DNA of 64,000 nucleotides from Malaciobacter pacificus (GTDB taxonomy: Bacteria > Campylobacterota > Campylobacteria > Campylobacterales > Arcobacteraceae). Positions within the stretch are counted from its first letter, which is position 1. Each line of letters starts with the position of its first letter. Shown piece by piece: positions 57,283 to 61,519 of the stretch. Below the pieces are notes generated by a model that ran no database searches, was not told where the DNA came from, and worked only from the letters and a program-made list of their open reading frames with translations. Where the stretch lies: assembly GCF_004214795.1 (NCBI RefSeq), contig NZ_CP035928.1, positions 2,480,001 to 2,544,000 on the forward strand, in the 5' to 3' direction. The translations under genes and the position numbers were made by a program.

Positions 57283-57804
57283 TTATGTTACCTCTCCAAA
57301 AAGCTTGGATAACAAGGCAACAGACTTTCCTTTTTCATGTTGTTTGTATATTACGTTCTTCTCTTTAGTACTTAAAATAGCTTTTCTACCAAAGTGAACA
57401 CCTTTTTTCTTTGCAGCTTCAATTCCTTCTTTAACACGTTCATTTATTAAATCACGTTCAAATTCTGCAATAGCACCTAACATAGTAAATAATAGTCTAC
57501 CTGCTGGAGATGTTGTATCAATATTTTGATGTAATACTTTAAGATTTACATCTTTGCTTTCTAAAAACTTTGCAATATTATGAAGGTCTATTACAGACCT
57601 TGCTAATCTGTCAAGTTTTGTAATATAAAGGACATCACCTTCTCTTACAAAATCCATCATAACCTTAAACTGTTCACGATCTGCTTCATTCTTCCCTGAT
57701 CTTTTTTCTGAGAAAATCTTTTTACAGCCAGCACTCTTAAGTTGATTAATTTGATTCTCAAGATTTTGACTTGAAGTTGAAACTCTTGCATAACCTACAT
57801 TCAT
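57283..57804 (-). pseudogene. serine recombinase/resolvase, C-terminus cut by IS3
   Basis: Resolvase/invertase family. 'VGYARVSTSSQNLENQI' carries the nucleophile Ser9, 'ITKLDRLARS' and 'LLFTMLGAIAEFERDLINERVKEG' in part the arginine-rich active site, and 'FGRKAIL' the linker. The DNA-binding helix-turn-helix starts ('GKSVALLSKLF') but the last native residue is Phe; Gly-Glu-Val-Thr-stop comes from the IS3 end. About 10–25 residues including the recognition helix are missing, so it is probably inactive. The 247 bp upstream (57805–58051) hold no gene; a TATAAT-like -10 near 58017 probably serves the cyd operon. Confidence 0.85.
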
Positions 57805-58051
57805 AATAAATCCTTTGTATTGAACTTACTATTTATCTCATATATTGGAAGGATTGTAAAGTCATGTATTTTCCCTAAAAGAACAGGTTGTTGCATTTAT
57901 TAATTAATATATCATAACTTAATTTTAGAATGATTTGCACATTATAAAATTCAAATATTAATTTATTATAAAAAAATCTTATATTTAAATTAACATTTTT
58001 TTAACTAATAAAGAGTATAATTTTATAATTAAAATTTATGAAAGTTATAAT

Positions 58052-58264
58052 ATGCATAAAATTAAAAATATCTATTTATTATATAAAGAAGGGTTTCAAA
58101 ACTTAACTATAGGTCGTATTCTTTGGAAACTGATTATTATAAAACTAATTGTAATACTACTATTTTTAAACACTTTTGTTTATGACAAAACTATTAAAAC
58201 TGAATATAAAAATGATAATGAAAAAATTCAATTTGTATTAAAAAATCTTATAAAGGATAACTAA
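58052..58264 (+). CDS. DUF4492 protein ahead of cydAB
   Basis: 70 aa. 'YLLYKEGFQNLTIGRILWKLIIIKLIVI' (in two pieces) is the DUF4492 signature. One membrane helix at about 24–44, then a hydrophilic tail. The family is found next to cytochrome bd genes in Campylobacterota and Bacteroidota; its function is not known. Stop and cydA start share TAATG. An assembly or accessory role for the oxidase is an inference from linkage. Confidence 0.85.
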   Translation: MHKIKNIYLLYKEGFQNLTIGRILWKLIIIKLIVILLFLNTFVYDKTIKTEYKNDNEKIQFVLKNLIKDN

Positions 58265-59790
58265 TGGAAGAACATTTAGTAGATTGGTCTAGAGCTCAGT
58301 TTGCATTGACTGCAATTTACCATTGGCTTTTTGTTCCATTAACTTTAGGGCTAGGTTTTATTATAGCTATTATGGAAACTATTTATGTAAAAACTGGTGA
58401 TGAGTTTTGGAAAAAAACAACAAAGTTTTGGATGACTTTGTTTGCAATAAATTTTGCAATAGGAGTTGCAACTGGAATTATAATGGAGTTTGAATTTGGA
58501 ACTAATTGGGCAAATTACTCTTGGTTTGTCGGTGACATTTTTGGAGCTCCACTTGCTGTTGAGGGTATTTTAGCATTTTTTATGGAATCTACTTTTTTTG
58601 CAGTAATGTTTTTTGGTTGGGATAAAGTAAGTAAAGGTTTTCATTTGCTTTCAACTTGGCTTGTTGCAATTGGTTCAAATTTAAGTGCACTATGGATTTT
58701 AGTTGCAAACGGTTGGATGCAATACCCTGTTGGCATGAAATTTAATCCAGACACAGTAAGAAATGAAATGGATAACTTTTGGGATGTTCTCTTCTCACCT
58801 GTTGCTATATCTAAGTTTTTACATACTATTACAAGTGGTTATGTTGTAGCTTCACTTTTTGTTGTAGGAATTTCTGCTTGGTATTTATTAAAAAGAAGAG
58901 AGATTGAGTTTGCAAAAAAATCAATAATTGTTGCTGCAAGTTTTGGACTTATAACTTCAATATTTATTACTATTACAGGTGATGAATCTGCCCATCAGGT
59001 TGCACTAAAACAGCCTGTAAAATTGGCAGCTATGGAAGGACTGTATGAGGGAAGAACAGAAGCTGGAATAGTTGCTATTGGAGTTTTAAATCCTAAAAAA
59101 ACATTAACAAATGATGAAGAGCCATTTTTATTTGAAATTGAAGCTCCTTATGCTTTATCTCTTTTAGGTTATCACGATATTAATGCTTTTGTTCCAGGAC
59201 TTAAAGATTTGGTTTATGGAAATGAAAAATATAATATTGAATCTGCTCAAAGTAAAATGGACAAAGGAAAAATTGCTATAAATGCTTTAAAAGAGTATAA
59301 GAAAGCAAAAAAAATAAATGACATTGAAAATATAAGAAAATATCAAGAGATATTAGAAAAAAATATGAAATATTTTGGATATGGACATTTAAAAAAACCT
59401 GAAGATATTATCCCACCTATACCACTTACTTTTTATACTTTTCACTTAATGGTGGCATTGGGGTCTTGGTTTTTAGTTCTTTTTGCTTTACTTCTATTTT
59501 TTACACTAAAAAGAGAGATTTTAAACCATAAATGGCTTTTAATAAGTACAGTTACTTCAATTCCATTAGGGTATATAGCAAGTGAAGCTGGCTGGATAGT
59601 TGCTGAAGTTGGAAGGCAACCTTGGGCTATACAAGATTTAATGCCAGTAGGAATTGCCTTAACTGATATATCAACATCAAATGTAAAAACAACATTTTTT
59701 ATGTTTTTATTTTTATTTACAGCTTTACTAATTGCAGAGATTAAAATAATGATTGGTCAAATAAAAATAGGCCCAGAAGGAGGACATTAA
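58264..59790 (+). CDS. cydA: cytochrome bd ubiquinol/menaquinol oxidase subunit I
   Basis: 508 aa. Terminal oxidase with high oxygen affinity. 'FALTAIYHWLFVPLTLGLGF' has the heme b595 ligand His20, 'SKFLHTITSGYVVAS' the b558 His near 185, and 'GRQPWAIQDLMPVG' near 448 is the bd-type signature. A hydrophilic stretch of about 130 residues between 'GLYEGRTEAG' and 'IPPIPLTFY' is the periplasmic Q-loop and looks like the long form, here rich in Lys and Asn. Nine membrane helices are expected. Confidence 0.96.
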   Translation: MEEHLVDWSRAQFALTAIYHWLFVPLTLGLGFIIAIMETIYVKTGDEFWKKTTKFWMTLFAINFAIGVATGIIMEFEFGTNWANYSWFVGDIFGAPLAVEGILAFFMESTFFAVMFFGWDKVSKGFHLLSTWLVAIGSNLSALWILVANGWMQYPVGMKFNPDTVRNEMDNFWDVLFSPVAISKFLHTITSGYVVASLFVVGISAWYLLKRREIEFAKKSIIVAASFGLITSIFITITGDESAHQVALKQPVKLAAMEGLYEGRTEAGIVAIGVLNPKKTLTNDEEPFLFEIEAPYALSLLGYHDINAFVPGLKDLVYGNEKYNIESAQSKMDKGKIAINALKEYKKAKKINDIENIRKYQEILEKNMKYFGYGHLKKPEDIIPPIPLTFYTFHLMVALGSWFLVLFALLLFFTLKREILNHKWLLISTVTSIPLGYIASEAGWIVAEVGRQPWAIQDLMPVGIALTDISTSNVKTTFFMFLFLFTALLIAEIKIMIGQIKIGPEGGH

Positions 59791-59791
59791 T

Positions 59792-60925
59792 ATGTTTGAA
59801 GATTTAACACTATTACAACTACAGCAGTTTTGGTGGATAATAATTTCACTTCTTGGTGGATTATTTGCTTTTATTATGTTTGTTCAAGGTGGACAAACAC
59901 TCTTAGGAAGAATTTCAAAAGGGGATGAAACTTATAAAACAATGCTCATTAATTCTTTAGGTAGAAAATGGGAATTAGGATTTACAACATTAGTTTTATT
60001 TGGTGGAGCTTTATTTGCTGCATTTCCACTTTTTTATTCCACTAGTTTTGGCGGGGCATATTGGGTTTGGATGGCAATATTATTTTGTTTCATAATTCAA
60101 GCAGTTAGTTATGAATATAGAAAAAAACCTAATAATTTTTTAGGTAAAAAAGTTTATGAAGCTTTTCTTTTTATAAATGGAAGTTTAGGCGTTATTTTAC
60201 TAGGAGTTGCAATTGCTACATTTTTTTCTGGCTCAAGTTTCAGTGTAGATGAAAACAATTTTTCCCATTGGCATAACTCTTTAAGAGGTTTAGAGTCACT
60301 ATTTTCAATATTTAATCTTAGTTTAGGAATTGCATTGTTTTTCTTAGTAAGAATTTTAGGTGCATTATATTTTATTAACAATATTGATAACGATACTATT
60401 AGGTTTAGAGCAATTAAAAGTATAAAAATCGATATGCCAATTTTTTTGATATTCTTTTTAGTGTTTTTATTTTTGCTATTTACAAAAACAGGATTTGCAT
60501 ATGATGAAAATTTATCAATATATGTACAAAAGTATAAATATTTGATTAATTTTTTAGAGATGCCTTTTGTACTAGGAATGTTTATTACTGGAATATTGAT
60601 GGTTATTGTTGCTGTATTTTTAACTATTCACTTTAAAAAAACTTGTTGTATAAAAACGGGTGGATTAGGTGTTGTGCTAACAGTAAAAGCACTATTTTTG
60701 AATGTAGGATTAAATAATACATCATATTATCCTTCAACTTATGATTTGCAAAGCTCATTAACTATTATAAATAGTTCAGGTAGTCATTATACATTAACAG
60801 TTATGTCTTATACTGCACTAATGGTTCCTTTTGTTTTAGGATATATCTTTTATGTTTGGTATCAAATGGATAAGGTAAAAATTACAAAAGAGGAGATAGA
60901 AGATCCTCACGCACACAATTATTAG
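59792..60925 (+). CDS. cydB: cytochrome bd oxidase subunit II
   Basis: 377 aa with about eight to nine membrane helices. Begins 'LQLQQFWWIIISLLGGLFAF', the conserved first helix, then 'SLGRKWELGFTTLVLFGGALF' near residue 52. The C-terminus is hydrophilic and ends DPHAHNY. One base separates it from cydA. It is followed at 9 bp by a microprotein gene. Confidence 0.95.
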   Translation: MFEDLTLLQLQQFWWIIISLLGGLFAFIMFVQGGQTLLGRISKGDETYKTMLINSLGRKWELGFTTLVLFGGALFAAFPLFYSTSFGGAYWVWMAILFCFIIQAVSYEYRKKPNNFLGKKVYEAFLFINGSLGVILLGVAIATFFSGSSFSVDENNFSHWHNSLRGLESLFSIFNLSLGIALFFLVRILGALYFINNIDNDTIRFRAIKSIKIDMPIFLIFFLVFLFLLFTKTGFAYDENLSIYVQKYKYLINFLEMPFVLGMFITGILMVIVAVFLTIHFKKTCCIKTGGLGVVLTVKALFLNVGLNNTSYYPSTYDLQSSLTIINSSGSHYTLTVMSYTALMVPFVLGYIFYVWYQMDKVKITKEEIEDPHAHNY

Positions 60926-60934
60926 GATTATAAA

Positions 60935-61030
60935 ATGGAATATTTAAGTTCAATTATTTGGCTATGTACATGGCCACTTGTTATTTATATCTCTTATAGA
61001 TTAATTTTAAGAAATATAAAGAAGATATGA
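60935..61030 (+). CDS. 31-residue single-helix microprotein, CydX-like candidate
   Basis: 31 aa: 'MEYLSSIIWLCTWPLVIYIS' then 'YRLILRNIKKI'. One membrane helix with a Trp-rich start and a basic tail, 9 bp after the cydB stop. TTAGGATTATAAA before the ATG gives a fair Shine-Dalgarno. In E. coli the small subunit CydX (37 aa, one helix) follows cydB and is needed for oxidase stability; size, topology and position agree, while the sequence does not obviously match. Probably an oxidase accessory subunit. Confidence 0.6.
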   Translation: MEYLSSIIWLCTWPLVIYISYRLILRNIKKI

Positions 61031-61164
61031 TGATTACACTAATGAAAAGAAGTTTTATTTATTTCTTTTTTTTAATGATTTTAATAAATTTAGGCCAAAA
61101 CCTATATACACACTATATTTTAAAGGATAAAAAAAATGATTACATTTCCAGTAAAAACAAATAA
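61027..61164 (+). CDS. 45-residue single-helix microprotein
   Basis: 45 aa from ATG 61027, overlapping the previous stop as ATGATGA; a second ATG follows at 61030. Sequence 'MKRSFIYFFFLMILINLGQN' then 'LYTHYILKD' and a hydrophilic end. It has one membrane helix or an uncleaved signal. Its 3' end overlaps the NifX-like gene by 29 bp. Overlap on both sides favours a real gene; an alternative is that it only serves translational coupling. Confidence 0.4.
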   Translation: MMITLMKRSFIYFFFLMILINLGQNLYTHYILKDKKNDYISSKNK

Positions 61165-61519
61165 AGAGAATGCTGCGGTATCACCGCTTTTTGGAAAGGC
61201 AAAATATTTTGCTTTTTATGATGGTGAAAATTTAACAATAGAAGAGAATACATTTAAACATGGTGCACCGCTTATTGATTGGTTTTTAAATAAAGGTGTT
61301 AATGATATTGTAATAAAAGAGATGGGAATAAATCCATATAAAAAAATAAAAGCTACAAGTATGAATATCTATCATGCTGGAGATGATAGAGTAACTACAA
61401 ATGAGCTTATTGAAAAATATAAGAATAATGAACTTGTAGTTCTAGATGAAGAAAAAATGAAACTTATAATTAAAAAACATGAAAGTTCACATACTCATGG
61501 GCATAGTCACAATCATTAG
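61136..61519 (+). CDS. NifX/NifB-type (Fe-Mo cofactor-like) protein with His-rich tail
   Basis: 127 aa. Dinitrogenase iron-molybdenum cofactor-type domain: 'VKTNKENAAVSPLFGKAKYF' at the N-terminus, 'GVNDIVIKEMG' in the middle and 'TTNELIEKYKNNEL' near the end. The C-terminal 'ESSHTHGHSHNH' has five His and looks like a metal-binding tail. AAAGGATAAAAAA precedes the ATG. No nitrogenase genes are nearby. Its place after cydAB suggests a role in metal or cofactor handling around the oxidase, which is inference. Confidence 0.72.
   Translation: MITFPVKTNKENAAVSPLFGKAKYFAFYDGENLTIEENTFKHGAPLIDWFLNKGVNDIVIKEMGINPYKKIKATSMNIYHAGDDRVTTNELIEKYKNNELVVLDEEKMKLIIKKHESSHTHGHSHNH

Follow-up and report, generated by a model that had tools for sequence, protein, structure and literature searches.

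The bd oxidase genes of Malaciobacter pacificus (contig NZ_CP035928.1), located in the 64,000-nucleotide stretch of DNA analysed here (the window), are followed directly after cydB by two very short open reading frames, ORF1 and ORF2. The question raised by this locus is whether these frames encode proteins and, if so, whether both proteins belong to the oxidase. The original prediction had described them as two single-helix microproteins grouped with the oxidase, the first being a possible campylobacterotan analogue of the CydX subunit. The gene order of the region is DUF4492–cydA–cydB–ORF1–ORF2–PF02579, and its features are as follows:

57989..58022, + strand: conserved promoter-like element (ATTAAC...TATAATT) 5' of the operon, a sequence pattern only
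58052..58264, + strand: DUF4492 small membrane protein, 70 aa (PF14899, E 4.9e-22)
58264..59790, + strand: cydA, bd oxidase subunit I (PF01654, E 4e-167)
59792..60925, + strand: cydB, bd oxidase subunit II (PF02322, E 3e-67; TIGR00203 above cut-off)
60935..61030, + strand: cydY/cioY (ORF1), 31-aa single-helix small subunit (co-occurrence with CydA, C. jejuni homology, dN/dS)
61030..61164, + strand: ORF2, single-helix microprotein, 44 aa, or 45 aa from 61027 (9/104 family genomes, dN/dS, third-position enrichment)
61136..61519, + strand: PF02579 (Nitro_FeMo-Co) protein, 127 aa, with a His-rich tail (PF02579, E 1.8e-9)

The positions originally given for both frames were correct, with cydB ending at 60925, ORF1 spanning 60935–61030 (31 aa) after a 9-bp gap, and ORF2 spanning 61027–61164 (45 aa) with a 4-bp overlap with ORF1, although the likelier start of ORF2 lies one codon later. 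ORF1 has its own SD-like AGGA at 60924–60927, and each frame holds one hydrophobic stretch. Directly 5' of the operon, and pointing away from it, lies an ORF resembling a resolvase-type site-specific recombinase (57283–57804, minus strand).

Short ORFs are abundant in AT-rich sequence (67 of at least 20 aa within 6 kb), and one or both of the frames could on this ground be regarded as having opened by chance. This explanation is contradicted by the conservation, the purifying selection and the position of both ORFs, and is considered exceedingly improbable. A lack of conservation, or broken frames in relatives, had been named beforehand as evidence against the two microproteins; when checked in the Arcobacteraceae, ORF1 and ORF2 both withstood it. 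Both are under purifying selection and are more than chance frames, with a dN/dS of about 0.19 for ORF1 by the same measure as used for ORF2 (see below).

Sequence, position and co-occurrence identify the product of ORF1, MEYLSSIIWLCTWPLVIYISYRLILRNIKKI, as CydY (CioY), the small subunit with a single helix that belongs to the bd-type quinol oxidases of Campylobacterota. CydY was described in 2014 as encoded 3' of cydB in operons of epsilon- and deltaproteobacteria that have a long-Q CydA and no CydX, Arcobacter butzleri being in the figure and original CydY set (PMC4325964). In 2025, the Campylobacter jejuni protein, carried as a hypothetical protein in the annotation of some strains, was renamed CioY, its translation was shown by Ribo-seq, and reciprocal co-immunoprecipitation of CioY and CioA established it as a component of the C. 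jejuni CioAB oxidase (PMC11955535). The C. jejuni member found directly after cydB, MFHALFLLTWPLVIYLSYKFIMLNIKQLEKDNKL, has the same 34 aa that are reported for CioY and is clearly homologous to ORF1, with a WPLVIYxSY core (W-P-x-V-x-Y-x-x-Y being common to both). Among 24 CydY members W9, W13 and Y18 are invariant and P14 is nearly so, and the WP...Y..Y pattern is found in the C. jejuni member as well. ORF1 thus shares with CydY/CioY the place after cydB, a length of about 31–37 aa, the single helix, the W-P...Y...Y core and a long-Q CydA partner, and the differences are immaterial: relative to C. jejuni CioY, the copy in the window is a little shorter and carries a second Trp (W9). The notion of a campylobacterotan small subunit at the place of CydX, unmatched by PF08173, therefore holds, but it is not new: ORF1 belongs to a family described before, in PMC4325964 and PMC11955535, and is hence no new CydX analogue.

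The alternative of a divergent CydX, belonging to family PF08173, was weighed against this identification of ORF1. ORF1 resembles CydX of E. coli bd-I in its position in the operon, its length and topology, and a conserved Trp near the start of the helix, and its partner is likewise a CydA with a long Q-loop; the CydA of the window is colinear over its whole length with that of E. coli (6rko), the long Q-loop region included. No sequence relation to CydX is detectable, however. The PF08173 profile had no match in the window's own genome and was not matched by any of the 24 CydY members, nor did any solved chain match ORF1, in line with the originally noted unrelated sequence. CydY is also treated as a protein separate from CydX in PMC4325964. 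On the profile searches and the comparison with solved chains, membership of CydX was rejected, and a divergent CydX is regarded as quite unlikely. CydZ (PF10617/DUF2474) is similarly a small single-helix protein encoded after cydB, but it is found with short-Q CydA (PMC4325964), and ORF1 has no Pfam match to PF10617/DUF2474. CioY has been predicted to pack on CioA as CydX does on CydA (PMC11955535). If it behaves like CioY of C. jejuni and CydX of E. coli, the CydY of the window would form a single helix packed on CydA, stabilising the haem site or helping its assembly; of these properties the binding to CydA/CioA was seen in C. jejuni (PMC11955535), and the role at the haem is inferred.

The distribution of CydY follows that of the oxidase closely. 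ORF1 matches were found in 41 of 104 Arcobacteraceae genomes (E<1e-5). CydA (PF01654 above cut-off) is present in 40 of the 104, and CydY in all 40 of these, always on the same strand and about 1.2 kb, or one cydB, after cydA; where it was read, the end of cydB lies 8–15 nt 5' of cydY. Only one of the 64 genomes without CydA has a CydY match (G017), located 270 bp from a contig end and followed by the PF02579 gene. In two genomes (G021 and G022), the remnants of cydB and cydY are broken, an in-frame TAG replacing the second Trp of cydY, and the PF02579 gene is still open despite the decay of cydAB. A second cydA-like operon was seen in G030 (C1:1703357-1710707), together with a fragment of CydY and two additional PF02579 copies. 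One of these copies lies close to the remnant of a cydY that contains a stop codon; the cyd operon is here duplicated and partly decayed.

Across the phylum, a CydY profile matched in 138 of 397 genomes, in a search that scored just the top candidates of each genome and may therefore have missed some CydY. At least 137 of the 160 genomes with CydA had a match, at least one of which (in G325, at a distance of 40 kb from cydA) could be due to chance, compared to 1 of the 237 without CydA, where the exception (G007) is a weak match of 15 residues. A scan of named genomes found CydY in C. jejuni (L108, L119), other Campylobacter, Helicobacter, Sulfurospirillum, Sulfurovum and Sulfuricurvum, the ORF following a cydB-sized gene in each case checked. 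CydY-like ORFs after a cydB-sized gene were also seen in contigs labelled Bacteroidetes/Bacteroidales (L104, 3501–3590; L101, 3501–3593), one contig being 1.39 Mb long. The range of CydY may exceed the groups reported in 2014, and these labels could reflect bin contamination.

The gene at the other end of the operon behaves similarly. DUF4492 was found above cut-off in 39 of the 40 Arcobacteraceae genomes with CydA, and in the exception (G075) the contig starts just before the matched region of cydA; in this family, DUF4492 is tied to CydA as tightly as CydY is. Its gene lies 5' of cydA with a 1-nt overlap and is a probable part of the cyd operon. The protein is a strong candidate for an as yet unstudied subunit of the oxidase, or for a factor in its assembly. 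A small hydrophobic protein was reported 5' in CydY operons (PMC4325964) and, judged by its position, probably corresponds to the DUF4492 gene. A literature search on DUF4492, or on PF02579 proteins beside cydAB in Campylobacter, returned nothing.

ORF2 is real and, as far as could be found, has no earlier report. In all its relatives the start codon corresponds to the second ATG of the ORF2 copy described here (61030), so ORF2 is likelier to encode 44 aa with a 1-nt TGATG overlap with cydY. The peptide has MKR near its N-terminus, a hydrophobic core and a charged tail. At the 3' end, a feature absent from the original prediction, the last 29 nt overlap the start of the PF02579 gene (61136) in a different frame. 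Outside this overlap, seven sequences gave a pooled pN of 0.19 and a pS of 0.56 (Jukes-Cantor dN/dS about 0.22), the third codon position accounts for 24 of the 49 variable sites (permutation p 0.001), and stops interrupt the other reading frames of the region. Within the overlap, none of the changes is silent in the ORF2 frame, and the conserved C-terminus of ORF2 (NDYISSKN) is therefore best explained by the PF02579 gene. Since ORF2 overlaps both cydY and the PF02579 gene, its translation is probably coupled to theirs, and the peptide is probably made from the same transcript as the cyd genes by coupled re-initiation. A programmed fusion of ORF2 to the PF02579 gene, by slippage on the run of eight A between them, was considered and rejected, as the run is not conserved in relatives.

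ORF2 occurs in 9 of the 104 Arcobacteraceae genomes, in five genera, and had no credible match outside the family; one match in G325 lies within a 495-aa frame and was judged to be chance. Searches of Pfam and NCBIfam gave nothing above cut-off, and homology to named families was rejected because the matches were all sub-threshold (e.g. DUF2909, E 0.048). The likeness of ORF2 to known families is thus that of a generic single-pass microprotein. From the signature of selection, we infer that it is very probably a translated single-pass membrane microprotein restricted to some Arcobacteraceae.

CydY and DUF4492 are kept and lost together with the oxidase, and ORF2 is not. Eight of the nine genomes with ORF2 are among the 40 with cydAB, and the ninth is G057, which has no cydAB. 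The order in G069, G054 and G068 is MCP–DUF4492–cydA–cydB–cydY–ORF2–PF02579–fumC. Between the same flanking genes, G057 has lost DUF4492–cydA–cydB–cydY, leaving MCP–ORF2–PF02579–fumC with an intact ORF2 frame and the overlapping PF02579 gene; the upstream (promoter) region of the operon is kept, the promoter-like element that aligns 5' of DUF4492 in other relatives standing here 5' of ORF2. In G061 the order is MCP–PF02579–fumC, without ORF2 and with another ORF preceding fumC, and in G065 a PF02579 gene lies beside fumC without an intact ORF2, with cydABY elsewhere. G055 and G033 have cydY and the PF02579 gene and lack ORF2, in G055 even though its CydY is 94% identical. An adjacent PF02579 gene is found in eight of the nine ORF2 carriers. 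In one of these, G058, ORF2 and the PF02579 protein are fused in frame into 156 aa, and both the internal ATG and the ribosome-binding-like site are retained; the remaining carrier, G036, keeps cydABY–ORF2, and no relative of the window's PF02579 protein was found in its genome.

The PF02579 protein itself has relatives in 42 of the 104 Arcobacteraceae genomes, and its His-rich tail suggests metal binding. It was seen to stay intact beside the site of cydY where cydAB has been lost (G021, G022, G057 and G061), and is therefore no oxidase-only factor.

What ORF2 does can be read in several ways. As our tentative best guess, ORF2 may span the membrane once and act as a partner to the PF02579 protein, which it would tether or assist there. 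The retention of ORF2 together with the PF02579 gene after oxidase loss in G057 and the in-frame fusion in G058 favour this link, each being a single genome and the loss in G057 possibly recent, whereas G036, lacking a PF02579 relative, speaks against an exclusive one; the absence of ORF2 beside most PF02579 genes in this position counts against the link in general. In its fuller form, in which ORF2 recruits a metal- or cofactor-binding PF02579 protein to the inner membrane to serve the bd oxidase or another membrane enzyme, is occasionally fused to it and can outlive the oxidase, the proposal is possible at best. A lineage-specific accessory subunit of the oxidase, a second small one like CydH in E. 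coli, would fit the single hydrophobic helix, the location directly after cydY (overlapping it by 1–4 nt or separated from it by a few nt) and the cydABY–ORF2 arrangement of G036, yet ORF2 is missing from 32 of the 40 cydABY operons, that of G055 included, and its frame is intact in G057, which has no cydABY. Such a subunit is accordingly doubtful and, because G057 keeps ORF2 after losing DUF4492–cydA–cydB–cydY, ORF2 is probably not an obligate one; the same two observations count against the original grouping of ORF2 with the oxidase.

The peptide could also matter little in itself, ORF2 acting mainly as a leader for translational coupling, in which the PF02579 gene has its ribosome-binding site. 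The AAAGGA ribosome-binding-like site of that gene does sit inside ORF2, whose overlap is 1–4 nt with cydY and 29 nt with the start of the PF02579 gene. The absence of silent ORF2-frame changes in the latter overlap also speaks for a leader. It is difficult to reconcile with this that amino acids are conserved outside the overlap, as the dN/dS and the third-position excess indicate, that relatives without ORF2 start the PF02579 gene directly after cydY, and that G036 keeps ORF2 without such a gene; a mere leader is rather unlikely. The rest of the weight goes to something else. Taken together, we consider it quite probable that ORF1 is CydY/CioY and that ORF2 is a separate, Arcobacteraceae-restricted membrane microprotein, likeliest an aid to the PF02579 protein and not an oxidase subunit.

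The results confirm that campylobacterotan bd oxidases almost always include CydY/CioY, and the neglected DUF4492 protein joins the same constant unit, DUF4492, CydA, CydB and CydY occurring, and being lost, together. The ORF2 microprotein and the PF02579 protein are set apart from this unit and follow different evolutionary rules, a separation which tells experimenters which peptides to seek in the purified oxidase.
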